Source: a virus
Virus record (IMG/VR): IMGVR_UViG_3300045282_000166
Location: 1-32,181 of that record
Reading direction: 5' to 3' (one strand)
Length of the DNA stretch: 32,181 nucleotides
Positions 3,526 through 23,583 of this stretch are shown piece by piece. Position 1 is the stretch's first letter, and each line of letters begins with the position of its first letter. The notes below the pieces were generated by a model. That model was not told the origin of the DNA. It saw nothing but the letters and a program-made list of their open reading frames with translations, and made no database searches. The position numbers and the translations under genes were made by a program.

Positions 3526-4593
3526 CTACGCCGCCAGCAGCAGCACCGCGATCGCCAGCTCGTCGTCGCTGTAGTCGCCGGTCGCCGCGATGGCGGGGGA
3601 CGCCAGCCTCACGCCGCCCGATCCGACGACTTCCAGGTAGCCCCGTCCCGCGATAGCAGGGCCCGCGAACGCCACGCCGCCTGAGCCGGTGACGGCCCGG
3701 ATGGGGCGTGGCTTCAGCCGCAGGATGGAGACAGGGCGCTCGGCCGCCACCACGGCACCCTCGCCCGCGATGGCGGGCCCGCCGATGGTGACGCTGGCCG
3801 TTCCCGCGAACTCGCCCGCCGCGACGGTGACGCCCAGGCCGTCGATGGCGGGGAGGCCGATGCTGACGCTGGCCGTCGCCGTGAACGCTTGGCTGCCGCT
3901 TGCGGCGATGGCCGGCGTGCCGAACGTCTCGGACGCCGCGCCGCTGACCGACTGGCTGCCGCTGCCCGAAAGGGCAGGCGCCCCGAAGGTGACGTCGCCC
4001 GTTGCCGCGGCACCCTGCGTCCCTGTGCCCTGTAGGCCCGCCAGGCCAACTGAGACGGCGGCTGTGCCCGAGAACGTCTCGGTGGCCGACCCGGCGATTG
4101 CGGGGCCGCTGAGGGCAACTGTGGCGGTGCCCGAGATGGCGGGCAGCATGGTGCCGGAGCCCGCGATGGCCGGGCCGCCCAGCGTCTCGGCGGCGGTCCC
4201 GGTGAACGCCTCGCTGCCAGACGCGGCGAGCGCCGGGCCGCCGAAGGCGATGGTGCCTGTCCCGGTGAATGTCCCGGCGCCAGTGGCAGCCAGCGCCGGG
4301 ACGCCGAATGTCTCAGAGCCGGTGGCGGTGAAGGCTTCCGAGCCCGACGCCGCCAGAGCCGGGCCCGTGATCGCTACGGTAGCGGTGCCGGAGAACGCTT
4401 CCGATCCCGAGGCCGCCAGGGCGAGCGGGCCGAACGTCTCGGTCGCGGTGCCGCTGAACGTCTCGGTGCCGGTGGACGCGACGGCCGCGACGGCGAAGGT
4501 GACGTCGCCCGTGCCGGTGATGGCGAGCGCACCGGACGGCGGGGTCCCCTTGACGGGCTGCTGCGGCCTCGGCGGTTGCCGCCAGAAGGACAC
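3526..4593 (-). CDS. Tandem-repeat (about 21-residue) beta-rich protein, probable virion decoration
   Basis: A 355-residue protein made almost wholly of about 14 tandem copies of a roughly 21-residue unit. The consensus is close to SGTATETFGGPALAASGSEAF: a T/S-rich strand, then GGPA(I/L)A, then SGSEAF. The first 25 residues (FWRQPPRPQQPVKG and on) and the last 15 are not repeats. Composition is Ala, Gly, Thr and Ser with almost no Lys or Arg, suggesting a regular beta-solenoid or extended fibre. It sits between other probable virion proteins and the capsid gene, so a head fibre or decoration protein is plausible. The start is GTG at 4593. I recognise no named family, so function is inference from repeat architecture and neighbours. 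Confidence 0.7.
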   Translation of the reverse strand: MSFWRQPPRPQQPVKGTPPSGALAITGTGDVTFAVAAVASTGTETFSGTATETFGPLALAASGSEAFSGTATVAITGPALAASGSEAFTATGSETFGVPALAATGAGTFTGTGTIAFGGPALAASGSEAFTGTAAETLGGPAIAGSGTMLPAISGTATVALSGPAIAGSATETFSGTAAVSVGLAGLQGTGTQGAAATGDVTFGAPALSGSGSQSVSGAASETFGTPAIAASGSQAFTATASVSIGLPAIDGLGVTVAAGEFAGTASVTIGGPAIAGEGAVVAAERPVSILRLKPRPIRAVTGSGGVAFAGPAIAGRGYLEVVGSGGVRLASPAIAATGDYSDDELAIAVLLLAA

Positions 4594-4597
4594 GGCG

Positions 4598-4807
4598 TCA
4601 GTCCGCTACGAAGTCGATCACATCCGACTGGTGGAAGCCGATCGCCGTGATACTCGGGTTTTCGACGATCTCGTGGTCGATCACGATCTCCCAGCGCGTC
4701 GCGGCGTCATCGTCCACGAATGAGCGGATCGTGCCGTGGGCCTGTCGCGTGTCGTCGCCGTCCACGAGCGTGATCGTGCCGACCGCGCCATCAGCGGGTG
4801 CGGCCAT
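4598..4807 (-). CDS. Small protein of unknown function in the head-gene cluster
   Basis: A 69-residue acidic protein starting at ATG 4807, overlapping the upstream stop (TGATG). The sequence reads as a short beta domain (GAVGTITLVDG, then RWEIVIDHEIVEN). It lies between two probable virion proteins and is translated in the same run, so a virion or assembly role is likely. I do not recognise its family. Confidence 0.6.
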   Translation of the reverse strand: MAAPADGAVGTITLVDGDDTRQAHGTIRSFVDDDAATRWEIVIDHEIVENPSITAIGFHQSDVIDFVAD

Positions 4808-5313: not shown

Positions 5314-6549
5314 TCAGTGGGCCAGGATCTGGGGGTATGGGGAAACGCGCGGGCCGGGTGGTGTGACGGGCGAGACGTACTCGGTCAGCGCTTGGGTGAA
5401 GGTGAGATACGTGTCGCCGGTGGCCGCGGCGCTACCCGCGTAGAGCAGGGTGGCGGTGCTGCCCGACACCAGCAGGCCGCCTGTCGAACTCGAGGGCTGG
5501 TCGTCGATGTAAAAGCGGATACGGAGCCGCTGGCCCTGGGTGACCGCGAGGTCGTCGCCGCTGATGAGCATTCGGAACGTCTGCTCGGAGGGCGCGAGCA
5601 GATCGGCATTGGCGTGGGTCCCTACCGCCCACACGGTTGCGCCGGTTCCGTCCCCGGCGACGACCGCGATCTCATAACGGAACGTCGCATGCGACGCCGT
5701 GACTCCCGAGCCCCGGGCGTTGACGCGCACGGCACCGCCCAGCGTGAAGGCGGTGAGCGGACGGGTGAACCAGTCCACGACGGTGCCGCCTGCCGTATCG
5801 GTGACCTGGACGCCGCTCGTCGGGCCCGTGGCGGTGTTGGTGACGCCGGTCGTTACGCCCGCGCCGCGGCTCGTCCACGCTTCGAGGTCGGTTGATGCCG
5901 TCGAGACAGCTGAGGCGGTGGCAGTTGGGAACACCTGCGACCCGGCCGGTTCAGCGGCGAATGACAGCGTCTCGGTGAGCGTGAAGTAGGAGTCGCCATC
6001 GGCGGCTGCCGTCGGGCCGTCGATGCCGAAGCTGAAGTTGAAGCCGGTCGCCATCGTCCCTGCGTCATCTCCGAAAACCCTGACGCGGAGACGGTCGCCC
6101 CGCTTGCAGGCCACGCCTGCGGCGGGCGTCTTCGCGAAGTTGTTGACGGCCCGCGTGGTGAGCGCAACCTCGGTCGTGCGGGCCGTCGTGTCGATGACGG
6201 TGATGGCGCCCGTCGCACCGTCGACCTTCTCGATGCGGCCGTTGATGGCGACGTTGGCCGAGGCGCTGTTCTCGGCCGACCAGAGGTTCCAGGTGATGCT
6301 GCCCGAGATCGTGACGTCGGCGTCGATCGGGGGCGTGTACCAGACGAGCGGGTTGCTGGTGCCCACCTCGACGCCGGCCGTCGCGCCTGCCACTGTCAAC
6401 GCCGTACCCGCGTTGGTCGCCGATGAGCCTGCGGTCGTGCTGAGCTGCCGTCCGATCCAGATTGCGGTAGCCGTGCCACGCAGGTTGGCGTCGTTGTTGC
6501 CCGTGGTGTAGTCGCTGTCCAGGGCGCGAAAGAATAATTTGGTCGCCAC
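5314..6549 (-). CDS. Two-domain beta-sandwich virion protein with an internal duplication
   Basis: A 411-residue protein whose two halves look alike. Each half (about 30-195 and 210-395) runs from a Thr/Ala-rich strand region, through a WYTPP or DWFTRP turn, to a (K/Q)(R/G)(D/Q)RLR(V/I)R(V/F) strand, and ends GDSYFTLTETL or GDTYLTFTQAL. This suggests a duplicated jelly-roll or Ig-like module. It is neutral, lacks a signal peptide, and lies in a portal-to-capsid gene run. I infer a head-surface fibre or decoration protein; a stray adsorption protein is the alternative. ATG at 6549. Confidence 0.65.
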   Translation of the reverse strand: MATKLFFRALDSDYTTGNNDANLRGTATAIWIGRQLSTTAGSSATNAGTALTVAGATAGVEVGTSNPLVWYTPPIDADVTISGSITWNLWSAENSASANVAINGRIEKVDGATGAITVIDTTARTTEVALTTRAVNNFAKTPAAGVACKRGDRLRVRVFGDDAGTMATGFNFSFGIDGPTAAADGDSYFTLTETLSFAAEPAGSQVFPTATASAVSTASTDLEAWTSRGAGVTTGVTNTATGPTSGVQVTDTAGGTVVDWFTRPLTAFTLGGAVRVNARGSGVTASHATFRYEIAVVAGDGTGATVWAVGTHANADLLAPSEQTFRMLISGDDLAVTQGQRLRIRFYIDDQPSSSTGGLLVSGSTATLLYAGSAAATGDTYLTFTQALTEYVSPVTPPGPRVSPYPQILAH

Positions 6550-6964: not shown

Positions 6965-8588
6965 CGGGGACGTCCTCCAGTCCGGTGATGCGACCGGCCT
7001 CGTCGCGGGTCACGATGCGCTTGCGGGCCCGCGCCTCGGCGATGTGGACGACGGGCGCCGCCGTCTCGACGAGGTTGACGGCCCCCTCGACGAGCGGGGG
7101 CGGGATGACGTTGTTGACGGTGATGGCCGGTGACGCTGGCGCCTGCACGACGATCGGCTCCTGGCGCGCGGGCTCGCGCCATTCGGGGATGTTGTTGTAG
7201 ACGTTGATGACGGGCGCCGGCGCCAGCTGCGGCTGGCTCTGCTCGGATCGGAGCTGCAAGCGCTCGCCCGAGCTGAACTGCGTGCCGCACTTGCGGCACA
7301 CGACCTCGGCATAGCCCTCGTAACGCCCGTTGAGGCGGTTGCACTTCGGGCAGCGCGCGTCCTGCAACGAGCGGGTCTGGACGGGGAGGCTGGCCGGCAC
7401 CGCCGCGGGGGGCGCGAACGGCACCGGCCTGTTCTCGACGTCGCCCGGGCCGAAGCCCTCGGCGGCGCGGGCCTCCTCGACGCTGATGACGCCGAGCGGG
7501 ATGCCCACGTTGTAGACGTCATACCGGGTGCGGATGTCGGCCCGCAGCAGCGCCTCGACGTTGAAGCGGCCGATCGTCGCCCGCGTCAAGAGGTCGCTCA
7601 TGGCCTGCTCCATCGGCTCGAGGTAGTGCGGCAGCAGGCACTGGCGCAGGAAGTCGTCGGCGACCTGGCCGACGTTCTGGTAGGTGATCGTGCTGCCCTG
7701 CACGGCGTAGTTCAGCAGCGTGGACGGGATGCTGAACATCAGCGCAATCTCGCCGTTGGCGAAGTTGCGCGCCTCGGTCATCTGCGCCCGCTCGGGGTCG
7801 GTGCCGATGTCCTTGACGTCATCGATGACCGGCCCGCTCACCTTGGGCAGGTTCTCGAAATCACTGATCCAGTCCAGCTTGAGGACCATCGCTTCGTCTT
7901 TGTTCACGTCGACTGCCGACTTGATCCAGGTATTCGATGGGTTGCCGGCGAACCAGTTGGCCGCCCACTCCTGCGCCTCGACCGCCACGCTCACGGCGGC
8001 GCCGCACGCCTGGAGCGGGCCCCAGCCGCGGAGCGGGCTGTTGGGGTCGGGCAGGTAGGTGATCTGGGTCATGTCCTCGTTGCGCATCAGCGCCTCGCGC
8101 CAGTGGATGATCGGGCGCATCGGGTTGGCCGGGTTCTGCTCGACGTTGACCTCACGCGGGTCGACGGGGATCAGGCTCATCGGGCTGTCGTCGGTATCGC
8201 GCTTGGCGGTCCACCACCACGCCTCGCCGAGGCGGGCCATGTTGAACGCGCTGTCGCGCCAGAACTCGTGCGGACGGGTCAGCGGGTTGGGCCTGATGAC
8301 GAGGCGCGGCGTGTCCTCGACGGGCAGCTTGGCGCCCGCGCGGTAGCCCTCCATGCTGAGGCTGCCGACGGTGTTGCTGATGAGGCTGACGGCCTTGAAG
8401 ACGGCGGGGACGCCGAGCGCCTCGCGCTGGCCCGCCGCCCGCCAGGGGCTGCTGCGGATGGGCCGGATGCGGCCGATGAGATCCTCGAGGCTGCTCGCCG
8501 ACGAGCCGTTGAGGGCGGTGCTGATGGTGGCGCGATCCTGCGTCGGGTCGCGCCCGACCAGCCAGCGGAAGCCGTCTCGTAGTCCCAT
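6939..8588 (-). CDS. Portal protein with a C-terminal Com-like zinc ribbon
   Basis: A 549-residue protein. Residues 50-385 are a typical HK97-family portal (VPAVFKAVSLISNTVGSL near the N-terminus, RPNPLTRPHEFWRD, PLRGWGPLQACGAAVSVAVE, then GVISVEEARAAEGF at the end of the core). It should form the dodecameric DNA gate. Unusually, residues 411-436 carry a four-cysteine ribbon (Cys413, 416, 431 and 434; CPKCNRLNGRYEGYAEVVC) resembling the Mu Com zinc ribbon. A Pro/Ala/Val-rich tail with an EAGRITGLEDV end follows. The start is ATG 8588 behind GGGGGAGA. The ribbon fusion is seen directly; what it binds is unknown. Confidence 0.9.
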   Translation of the reverse strand: MGLRDGFRWLVGRDPTQDRATISTALNGSSASSLEDLIGRIRPIRSSPWRAAGQREALGVPAVFKAVSLISNTVGSLSMEGYRAGAKLPVEDTPRLVIRPNPLTRPHEFWRDSAFNMARLGEAWWWTAKRDTDDSPMSLIPVDPREVNVEQNPANPMRPIIHWREALMRNEDMTQITYLPDPNSPLRGWGPLQACGAAVSVAVEAQEWAANWFAGNPSNTWIKSAVDVNKDEAMVLKLDWISDFENLPKVSGPVIDDVKDIGTDPERAQMTEARNFANGEIALMFSIPSTLLNYAVQGSTITYQNVGQVADDFLRQCLLPHYLEPMEQAMSDLLTRATIGRFNVEALLRADIRTRYDVYNVGIPLGVISVEEARAAEGFGPGDVENRPVPFAPPAAVPASLPVQTRSLQDARCPKCNRLNGRYEGYAEVVCRKCGTQFSSGERLQLRSEQSQPQLAPAPVINVYNNIPEWREPARQEPIVVQAPASPAITVNNVIPPPLVEGAVNLVETAAPVVHIAEARARKRIVTRDEAGRITGLEDVPDGAQPEAV

Positions 8589-15220: not shown

Positions 15221-15268
15221 TTCCAGCGGCCTGATCGTGCTCAGAATGGGCGCCCGAGAGGCCGTTTA

Positions 15269-15318
15269 GAGGTCTGCAAAACCTCTATTCACCGGTTCGA
15301 ATCCGGTCGTCGCCTCCA
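15269..15318 (+). other. tRNA-Cys 3' half forming the attP core (not a complete tRNA)
   Basis: The anticodon stem (GAGGT/ACCTC, 15269-15273 with 15281-15285) encloses loop CTGCAAA, giving anticodon GCA at 15276-15278. A five-base variable region leads to a perfect T arm: ACCGG, loop TTCGAAT, CCGGT. The 3' acceptor strand CGTCGCC, discriminator T and CCA end at 15318. T at the discriminator is the cysteine identity base. Upstream, a D-arm-like GCCCGAGAGGCC (15252-15263) occurs, but only about 13 bases separate a would-be acceptor strand from the anticodon stem and the acceptor pairing has mismatches. The 5' half is therefore not functional, as expected for attP. Confidence 0.85.
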
Positions 15319-15711: not shown

Positions 15712-15965
15712 TCGAAGATGTCGTCCATGTCGTCTGCGGCGTTGCAGATGTCGCAGGGATGGCCTTCGGGGTGCGTGTCGTCGATGGCGGCGCTCACCGC
15801 GTCCCATGCCTCTCGCAGCCTCACCTCGCGGCGTCGCCAGAGATCGGCGTCACAGGGCCAGACGTAAGCACAGCGACCGCAGAACACGATGCCCTCTGGG
15901 TCGGGGTCGAGCGGATAGTGCTGCACCGGTATCCGCCCCAACTCGTCCAGCTTCTCGGGCATCAT
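15696..15965 (-). CDS. Small protein with two CxxC pairs, unknown function
   Basis: An 89-residue protein from ATG 15965, whose start overlaps the integrase stop by four bases. It has CGRC and, 45 or so residues later, CDIC, plus an extra Cys in YVWPCDAD, so zinc binding is plausible. The C-terminus is very acidic (AADDMDDIFDEVPQ). Position behind integrase suggests a role in the early or lysogeny module, but function is unknown. Confidence 0.6.
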   Translation of the reverse strand: MMPEKLDELGRIPVQHYPLDPDPEGIVFCGRCAYVWPCDADLWRRREVRLREAWDAVSAAIDDTHPEGHPCDICNAADDMDDIFDEVPQ

Positions 15966-17071
15966 TGGACACGCCTCAACGCCCTGTCCAGACCATCGGC
16001 CACGAGCTTGAGACGGGAATCGATTGGATGCGAATACGTGTCCGACGTGATGCGGATCGTCGAGTGCCCGAGGATCTGCTTGACGTCCTCGAGGCCGAAG
16101 CCGAGCGAGAGCATCAGGCTGGCCGCCGTGTGGCGCAGCTCGTGGACGCGGACGCGCGGCAGGGCCAGACGCTCGAGGGTCTCGTACCAGCGTGCCAGGA
16201 TGGCGCTGCCGTGGTAGGGCCGGCCCGCCTCGGTCAGGAAGACGAGGCCGAAGTAGCGCCAGTCCGGCCGGCGCAGGTCCGCCAGGTGGGCCTTGTGCGC
16301 GGCCAGGGCAGCCAGCGCCATCGGGCCCAGCGGCACGCTGCGGGTCCGGCCCGACTTGGTCGGCCGCCGCTCCCATGGCTCATCTCGATCCCTCGTCCGG
16401 TGCAGGGTGGCCCTGATCGTCGCCCTGCCGGCGGCGAGGTCGATGTCGTCCCACGTCAGGCCCAGCGCCTCGGCCTCACGGACGCCTGTCGTCAGGAACA
16501 GCGTCCACAGCGGGTGCAGCCAGTCGCCGCGGGTCTTCTCGATGACCGTCATCGCCTGCTCCAGCGTGAGCGTCGCCGCCTCGCGGCCCCGCGGTGTCGG
16601 CAGCCTGGCATGGGCGACCGGGTTCTCGGCGACCAGGCGGTGCGAGGCCGCCCACAGGAAGGCCTGGTGGAGCACGGCGCGGTGGTGGGTCTTGGTGCGG
16701 GTGGACGTCGCCGAACGGGTCAGGCCGTCGCTGATGACGCCCTCCGTCAGGCGCTCGATCGGGTAGTCGCCGAACAGCGGCACGAGGTGGTTCTTGACGA
16801 TGCCGCGGTAGCCGGCCTTGGTCTTGGGCGCCAGGCTCGACGTGTCCACGGCGTCAGCGAGCCACCAGCGGAGGCACTCCGCGACGGACAGCCTCTTCGT
16901 CCGCCGCACGCCCTGCCCTGTCTCGCGCAGCAGCCGCAGGAGCTCGGCCTGCGCCACCCGTTTGTCCATGCTCGTCGCGGTGCGCCTGCTGCCGTCGGGC
17001 AGGCTGACCCGCGCCACCCAGAGGCCGTTGTTGCCGCGCCGGCAGAGGCTGCCCTGGCGATGTCCCCTCAT
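15962..17071 (-). CDS. int: Tyrosine integrase
   Basis: A 369-residue site-specific recombinase. Residues 1-45 form an arm-binding-type start (GSLCRRGNNGLWVARVSLPDG). A SAM-like core-binding domain spans roughly 60-160. The catalytic domain shows Arg198 (TTGVREAEALGL), Lys239 (PTKSGRTRSVPL), His310-x2-Arg313 (HELRHTAASL), His336 (LGHSTIRI) and the nucleophile Tyr346 (SDTYSH). The full set is present, so it should be active. It acts on attP at 15.2-15.4 kb and a host tRNA-Cys gene. ATG 17071 was chosen because the family start is MRGHRQGS; TTG 17077 is possible. The excisionase-like frame overlaps its first 218 bases. Confidence 0.95.
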   Translation of the reverse strand: MRGHRQGSLCRRGNNGLWVARVSLPDGSRRTATSMDKRVAQAELLRLLRETGQGVRRTKRLSVAECLRWWLADAVDTSSLAPKTKAGYRGIVKNHLVPLFGDYPIERLTEGVISDGLTRSATSTRTKTHHRAVLHQAFLWAASHRLVAENPVAHARLPTPRGREAATLTLEQAMTVIEKTRGDWLHPLWTLFLTTGVREAEALGLTWDDIDLAAGRATIRATLHRTRDRDEPWERRPTKSGRTRSVPLGPMALAALAAHKAHLADLRRPDWRYFGLVFLTEAGRPYHGSAILARWYETLERLALPRVRVHELRHTAASLMLSLGFGLEDVKQILGHSTIRITSDTYSHPIDSRLKLVADGLDRALRRVQ

Positions 17072-17240
17072 GGTCAACCACCCTTCGCAGCTCGACGAAG
17101 CGCTCGAGGTCGCCCGAGTCTACCCGCACGCTGCGGCCGATCCGGACGCCGGCCAGCTCGCCCCGCTTGACGAGCAGGTACACCTGGTCCCGGCTCAACG
17201 CGAGGTCGTCGGCCACCTCGGCGACCGTGAGCAGCTTCAC
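16854..17240 (-). CDS. Excisionase-like HTH protein overlapping integrase
   Basis: The first 55 residues are a MerR/excisionase-type winged helix (LLTVAEVADDLALSRDQVYL, then GRSVRVDSGDLERFVE). This is the usual domain of recombination directionality factors, which bias integrase toward excision. The start is GTG 17240, overlapping the preceding 29-codon gene (GTGA). Unusually, the frame stays open for about 70 more codons through the start of integrase, ending at 16854. That tail is Arg/Ala/Gln-rich and may be only a by-product of GC-rich coding on the integrase frame. The DNA-binding part is secure; the length is not. Confidence 0.75.
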   Translation of the reverse strand: MKLLTVAEVADDLALSRDQVYLLVKRGELAGVRIGRSVRVDSGDLERFVELRRVVDHEGTSPGQPLPARQQRPLGGAGQPARRQQAHRDEHGQTGGAGRAPAAAARDRAGRAADEEAVRRGVPPLVAR

Positions 17241-22646: not shown

Positions 22647-22979
22647 ATGGCCGTGATGACTACGGAGGAGGACCAGCGACGTCGGCGCGGCTACTGGTTG
22701 CGTCTCGCGCGCCAGCGTTCGGGCCTGACGCTGAAGCAGGTCGCCGTCGAGATGGGCTACGCCCTCCGGTCGCAGACCACGATCCGTCTCTGGGAGCTCG
22801 GGCAGCGCGACCCGTCGGACATCCAGCTCACGCGCATCGCGCGGGTCTATCGCGTCCCGGTCAGCGTCTTCAGCGAGCCACGCGCCACCGACCAGGAATG
22901 GCTGGACCAGCGCGTCCGCGACGCCATGCGGACAGGTGAGCCCGACGGGGCCAGCAACGCCCACAAGGCCACCGGCTGA
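22647..22979 (+). CDS. XRE-family repressor candidate
   Basis: A 110-residue protein with an N-terminal helix-turn-helix (WLRLARQRSGLTLKQVAVEM, then SQTTIRLWELGQRDPSDIQL). It is the only regulator transcribed rightward and diverges from the early operon, so it is the likely lysogeny repressor. It lacks an S24 peptidase domain, so it would not be cleaved by RecA like lambda CI. The short tail after residue 75 (ATDQEWLDQRVRDAM) may dimerise. ATG 22647 is preferred over ATG 22656; neither has a good ribosome site. Confidence 0.75.
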   Translation: MAVMTTEEDQRRRRGYWLRLARQRSGLTLKQVAVEMGYALRSQTTIRLWELGQRDPSDIQLTRIARVYRVPVSVFSEPRATDQEWLDQRVRDAMRTGEPDGASNAHKATG

Positions 22980-22999: not shown

Positions 23000-23028
23000 T
23001 TGACGCGGCGCCGATCGTCCGCGAGCAT
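23000..23028 (+). promoter_or_regulatory. Promoter of the cargo gene
   Basis: TTGACG (23000-23005), 17 bases, then GAGCAT (23023-23028). It has the same spacing and the same GAG-x-A -10 style as the early promoter. Transcription would begin near 23035, which is the first base of the leader hairpin. Confidence 0.5.
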
Positions 23029-23034
23029 TCCCGG

Positions 23035-23118
23035 CCCGGTCCTGTCGTGTCTTCCAAGGCTCCGACGGGACCGGGATCGATTCGAACCTGAGCCTTGGAA
23101 GAGCCTTGGAGCAATTCC
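23035..23118 (+). promoter_or_regulatory. Structured leader with two overlapping 13-bp pairings before the cargo gene
   Basis: Stem 1 pairs 23035-23047 with 23063-23075 (13 pairs, one G-U). Stem 2 pairs 23050-23062, which is the loop of stem 1, with 23090-23102 (13 perfect pairs). A second copy of the 3' arm, GAGCCTTGGA at 23101-23110, can pair with the same loop and would cover part of the GGAG ribosome site at 23108-23111. The leader therefore has one 5' arm with two competing partners, one of which masks the ribosome site. It may act as an RNA switch or pseudoknot, or as DNA-level operator repeats. Confidence 0.6.
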
Positions 23119-23583
23119 GTGTTGAAAGTCCTGGCGGGGTTGTGCCTCGCGGCGGGCATCGTGGTGATCGGCGGCGGCATCGCCAACCGAATCGAGGCGT
23201 CGAATGTGGCGCAGGGACCGACCGCCGACGTGCCGGCACCCGCAGTCAGCGTTGACATCCCGCCCGTCGGTGCGATCTGGTTCGGCACGTCCTTCAACAC
23301 CGACACACTCGAGATCAGCGGTCGCCTGGCCAAGGTCGGCACGACCGCGCCGTTCTCGTTCGTGGCCCATCTGCCCCGGTCGATGGACGCCAAGGAGCTC
23401 GCCCTGCGGATCTACCTCGACGGCAAGCTCGTGGGGACCACCGGCGTCGGCGAAAAGAGTTCGGGCAGCGGCGACGTCTGGGGCTGGTCGCCGGGACCGC
23501 TCTTCGAGAAGGGCACCTGGAAGTACCAGGTGACGGACATCGGCGGCAACGTGCTGGCCGTCGGGTCGATCAAGGCCGTCTAG
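23119..23583 (+). CDS. Membrane-anchored beta-domain protein, lysogenic-conversion candidate
   Basis: A 154-residue protein with an N-terminal membrane anchor or signal (LKVLAGLCLAAGIVVIGGGI). A Pro/Val linker and a beta-rich outer domain of about 110 residues follow (IWFGTSFNTDTLEISGRLAK, then DVWGWSPGPLFEKGTWKYQV). It lies on the same strand as the repressor and apart from all lytic genes, the usual place for a moron expressed in the lysogen. The GTG at 23119 was chosen because GGAG stands seven bases upstream; the frame also opens earlier at TTG 23095. Its stop shares CTAG with the opposing fibre gene. No family recognised. Confidence 0.7.
   Translation: MLKVLAGLCLAAGIVVIGGGIANRIEASNVAQGPTADVPAPAVSVDIPPVGAIWFGTSFNTDTLEISGRLAKVGTTAPFSFVAHLPRSMDAKELALRIYLDGKLVGTTGVGEKSSGSGDVWGWSPGPLFEKGTWKYQVTDIGGNVLAVGSIKAV

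Follow-up and report, generated by a model that had tools for sequence, protein, structure and literature searches.

The Shine-Dalgarno (SD) sequences of the T4 genes e, soc, 49 and I-TevI are sequestered in hairpins of read-through transcripts (PMC3014915). In the gene 32 leader of T4, T2 and RB69, gp32 is recruited by a pseudoknot and spreads across the ribosome site, and a 2010 review described gene 32 as possibly the only viral pseudoknot acting in translational autoregulation (PMC3014915). Among lysogeny genes, Ltp of phage TP-J34 is a superinfection-exclusion lipoprotein encoded by a moron in the lysogeny region (PMC3952083). Prophage cargo must not harm the lysogen, and mechanisms that restrain it are known for few phages. 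Translationally coupled hairpins that sequester the SD represent a further general class.

In this study, we analyzed the leader of a cargo gene (positions 23035-23118) in a 32,181-base IMG/VR virus record, referred to as the window. The regulator gene upstream of the cargo gene lies on the same strand and probably encodes the lysogenic repressor, judging from its divergent position opposite the early genes; two HTH regulators are located directly upstream of the leader. The likely cargo start is GTG 23119, and a longer predicted open reading frame begins at TTG 23095. A tblastn search with the cargo protein found no relative in IMG/VR or in named phages, and its structure model was of low confidence (pLDDT 44) and therefore too poor for a structure search. 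The locus comprises the following features:

22656-22979, plus strand: XRE-type regulator (HTH_31/HTH_3; Pfam PF13560, 4e-9; PF01381, 8e-9)
23000-23028, plus strand: weak promoter-like pair TTGACG-17-GAGCAT (8/12 matches), which would start RNA near 23035
23035-23047, plus strand: 5' arm of stem S1, CCCGGTCCTGTCG
23048-23062, plus strand: 15-nt loop of S1, containing the 5' arm of stem S2 (23050-23062), which is the anti-SD sequence TCTTCCAAGGCTC
23063-23075, plus strand: 3' arm of S1, CGACGGGACCGGG
23090-23102, plus strand: 3' arm of S2 (copy 1, candidate decoy), GAGCCTTGGAAGA, pairing 13/13 with 23050-23062
23101-23110, plus strand: 3' arm of the alternative stem S2' (copy 2), GAGCCTTGGA, pairing 10/10 with 23053-23062 and overlapping the SD
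23108-23111, plus strand: Shine-Dalgarno GGAG, recognized from sequence, 7 nt upstream of GTG 23119
23119-23583, plus strand: cargo gene (154 aa) with a signal-peptide-like N-terminus and a predicted beta-rich domain, without family match

As in the T4 leaders of e, soc, 49 and I-TevI, the SD would lie in a helix with upstream sequence, and shorter or truncated RNAs would alter access to it. Each of those T4 leaders is a simple hairpin that contains a late promoter, whereas in the window the anti-SD sequence sits in the loop of another stable stem, where two partners compete for it. With gene 32, the leader shares an H-type pseudoknot layout with coaxial stems upstream of a phage ribosome site; however, the window stems of ~11-13 bp would mask the SD directly, and the cargo is without known nucleic-acid binding. 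Based on this comparison, the leader would act like the SD-sequestering leaders of T4 with the topology of gene 32, while being a demonstrated member of neither class. Control by SD occlusion is itself already known; what would be new is the pseudoknot arrangement with two copies. Like Ltp, the cargo is a small surface or secreted protein encoded in a lysogeny region, and two related phages (L002 and L003) carry lipoproteins, but no sequence relation to Ltp was found and the window protein lacks the lipobox cysteine of the L002 and L003 proteins.

The two interlocking 13-bp pairings described in the original prediction proved exact in their coordinates, S2 being perfect and S1 consisting of 12 Watson-Crick pairs plus one G-U (U23043-G23067). 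This only imperfect pair of S1 forms in RNA and not in DNA, and we counted it in favor of an RNA role. The second arm copy, which had been said to take in part of the ribosome site, was likewise found to pair over its entire length and to overlap GGAG; S2' extends to 11 pairs when U23052-G23111 is counted. S1 and S2 together show an H-type layout with four abutting, non-overlapping arms and connecting loops of 2 nt (L1), 0 nt (L2) and 14 nt (L3), the L2 abutment being as in coaxially stacked pseudoknots. Neither 830 dinucleotide-preserving shuffles of the window (26.7 Mb) nor 175 kb of DNA from other phages contained interlocked inverted repeats in which both members reach 12 Watson-Crick pairs; at a threshold of 10 pairs, the shuffled sequence yielded 39 cases. 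The automatic repeat search credited S1 with its uninterrupted 8-bp segment alone, the 4-bp remainder being below the seed, and the 12 pairs of S1 were counted by inspection because the search treats G-U as a break. Perfect inverted repeats of at least 13 bp whose spacer did not exceed 60 were found twice, compared to 0.13 expected per shuffled window. The interlocked structure of the leader is far beyond chance.

The original prediction had also held that both full stems at once would be strained, and the geometry bears this out. Based on A-form geometry, S2 spans ~28.6 Å at 11 bp and 33.6 Å at 13 bp. A single-stranded loop reaches ~6 Å per step, which gives the crossing loop 30 Å with 4 nt and 18 Å with 2 nt. 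A full 13+13-bp pseudoknot with a 2-nt crossing loop is sterically impossible, since its S2 would need ~34 Å; because this loop is too short for 13 bp, S2 is limited to ~11 bp while S1 stands. At these lengths (13 bp for S1, ~11 bp for S2), the interlocking stems are sterically compatible close to the ribosome site, as in H-type pseudoknot translational operators such as those of gene 32 and rpsO. Pairing of 11 bp with the S1 loop was calculated at -18.3 kcal/mol for copy 1 and -18.0 kcal/mol for copy 2, and because the two copies are nearly isoenergetic, a decoy function of copy 1 is energetically plausible. For RNA extending to 23140, the pseudoknots outcompete the nested fold up to loop penalties of 13.8 (copy 1) and 12.3 kcal/mol (copy 2), energies that depend on an assumed loop penalty.

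In nested folding of RNAs starting at 23020-23035, S1 formed with a probability of ~1.0, and the nested exchange of S1 for S2 was rejected for these starts. RNA starting at 23000 was balanced between S1 (0.38) and S2' (0.61), and with starts at 23040-23052, S2' masked the SD with a probability of 0.88-1.0. As the balance at 23000 indicates, the conclusion depends strongly on where the 5' end falls. The proposed switch between a free and a masked ribosome site thus stands only in part: one alternative pairing does mask the SD and a pseudoknot of ~11 bp fits, but the models make an S1-S2 flip unlikely for starts at 23020-23035, and the realistic choice in them would be which copy pairs with the S1 loop. 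The promoter-like pair, proposed to start transcription at the first base of S1, does set the +1 near 23035; it is weak, however, and was equalled in 16% of cases when the 140-nt region was shuffled, while a promoter scan, which covered the sigma-70 type alone, found none for the leader and none inside it.

With the regulator, RecE, tail, portal and tape-measure proteins as queries, the same locus was recovered in two phages alone, L002 and L003, whose regulators share 91% and 90% identity, respectively, over the aligned part; a locus search of genome contigs revealed no further carriers. The leader was missing from all relatives' loci examined, including these two. The exact 20-nt repeat pattern had no match in 2.9 million viral contigs, phage and plasmid records gave short chance matches to the leader only, and no Rfam covariance model matched it, even with E values up to 5 allowed. 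The L002 cargo is a lipoprotein weakly similar to the window cargo (34-residue match, E 3e-5; 32% by alignment). Its leader of ~35 nt is unrelated in sequence and consists of CACCTCGTC, 9 nt and GACGAGGTG, the 3' arm being the ribosome site of GTG 4419, so that the cargo SD is buried in a perfect 9-bp helix (fold z = -3.5). The regulator of L003 is followed by different genes, with a lipoprotein gene (ATG 7111) further on whose AGGA lies in an 8-bp helix; the alternative start GTG 7126 is without such a helix. The region behind the L003 regulator (5493-6401 and 7105-8208) encodes a 302-aa protein that appears ParB-type by eye, and it also contains a further gene and two probable lipoproteins. 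The different genes at the cargo position of L003 indicate that the locus is a hypervariable cargo site.

In order to place the SD helices in context, we used as controls 117 genes annotated in three actinophages, together with 29 other genes of the window. The longest Watson-Crick helix involving the SD measured 10 bp in the window, 9 bp in L002 and 8 bp for the L003 lipoprotein gene, compared to 3-7 bp among the actinophage genes and 3-8 bp among the window genes. Upstream shuffles reached the observed helix in 3 (window), 6 (L002) and 5 (L003) of 1500 cases each. The possible S2' helix of 10-11 bp over GGAG is thereby a strong helix of the kind seen in SD-sequestering leaders, but its length does not count as independent evidence because the window was chosen for its repeat. 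The L002 helix does count as independent evidence; that of L003 is weaker evidence because it depends on ATG 7111 being used over GTG 7126. In the nested partition function with S1 present, the SD was unpaired at ~0.3-0.5, a moderate masking only, and its average pairing was ordinary (77/117 control genes were equally or more paired), and it is therefore the long helix, rather than overall accessibility, that carries the argument. That the SD of the L002 cargo gene also lies within a long helix, although the sequence is unrelated, favors an RNA role. Judged by sequence, burial of the SD through unrelated sequences in at least two members of the group appears as selection for the effect, and not for the sequence, would leave it.

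We therefore tentatively favor, at somewhat less than even confidence, an RNA leader that gates translation of a moron-type cargo through SD occlusion with a competing decoy partner; the alternative folds would probably turn down the output of cargo protein. S1, very stable by calculation, would form first and present the anti-SD sequence in its 15-nt loop. This loop could then form an H-type pseudoknot of up to ~11 bp with either copy: pairing with copy 1 would leave the SD open, whereas pairing with copy 2 would cover it. Since copy 1 is transcribed before copy 2, it would compete for the loop, and cargo translation would settle at a tuned, partial level. Where S1 does not form, the S2' hairpin would mask the SD and translation would be lower. 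In L002, the hairpin lies 4 nt past the regulator stop codon, exactly the layout of a translationally coupled hairpin; as it all but touches the stop, a ribosome terminating there would be expected to open it. Unlike in coupled hairpins, the stop codon in the window lies ~56 nt upstream of S1, which puts the stem beyond the reach of a terminating ribosome, so coupling would not serve here and the decoy arrangement may replace it. If this is true, the phage group restrains its cargo at the level of translation, swapping the leader wholesale while the ribosome site is kept buried, and in the window phage the decoy copy, as a small RNA device, sets the cargo level. A more far-reaching version appears improbable to us. 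It describes an RNA toggle in which the loop picks between tandem, near-identical partners, decoy or ribosome site, as pseudoknots of equal energy, and in which factors that shift the balance (a ribosome, an RNA-binding protein or transcription speed) set the expression of lysogeny cargo.

Alternatively, the S1 hairpin between the regulator and cargo genes may mark a transcript end, stabilize the RNA or act as a U-less terminator, with S2 and S2' secondary to a sequence duplication, which we regard as unlikely. S1 alone supplies most of the leader's folding energy, and the regulator gene of L002 is also trailed by a hairpin, but this explanation does not account for the perfect 13-bp S2 in the loop. 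S1 was rejected as an intrinsic terminator, as it is followed by ATCGATTCGAACC without a T run and a terminator scan found none.

Slightly less probable still is a DNA operator, in which three GAGCCTTGGA decamers would bind a regulator controlling a cargo promoter and the RNA pairing would be a by-product. The exact decamers at 23053 (minus), 23090 (plus) and 23101 (plus), the direct copies being 11 bp or about one helical turn apart, would suit such a role, as would the two HTH regulators directly upstream. XRE operators are usually palindromic, whereas the decamer is not; and although an operator would be expected at repeated sites, the window has no further copy even when one mismatch is allowed. 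Moreover, an operator leaves both S1 and the burial of the L002 SD by an unrelated repeat unexplained.

We give the same low probability to a functionless mutational by-product, which an 11-bp slippage duplication together with template switching would have produced. The excess of long inverted repeats in this genome makes a neutral origin possible: perfect ones of at least 12 bp with a spacer of 3-60 numbered 5 compared to 0.33 expected from shuffles, and several of them fall within genes. That the relatives are without the leader also agrees with such an origin. Against it, interlocked pairs of this length were missing from shuffles and controls, L002 buries its SD independently, and another long repeat of the window, in a DPBB (RlpA-like) gene, keeps its pairing in the three phages via double-sided, compensatory changes, which indicates that repeats in this group can be selected as RNA. 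An integrase attachment site was rejected, since the integrase lies 6 kb off beside tRNA-Cys and the repeat spacing is unfit for a core site.

The tRNA-Cys (15249-15318) adjoins the tyrosine integrase gene (15962-17077), which is likely the attachment-site neighborhood. The DPBB gene encodes a secreted protein and holds the longest inverted repeat of the window; its early coding part contains a very long RNA hairpin in the window, L002 and L003:

22165-22333 (window), minus strand: hairpin in the neighboring DPBB gene, core arms 22197-22217/22257-22277, fold z = -6.0
3560-3725 (L002): corresponding hairpin, fold z = -3.1
4499-4670 (L003): corresponding hairpin, fold z = -5.0

Compensatory double changes affected 6/57 consensus pairs, with the amino acids changing too. 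From these sequence comparisons, the hairpin resembles a structured RNA conserved within a coding region, and the comparative support for it exceeds that for the leader. In addition, the contig ends (1-1636 and 30555-32181) are alike, with 85% identity over 1641 aligned bases, and represent a diverged duplication of a gene block.
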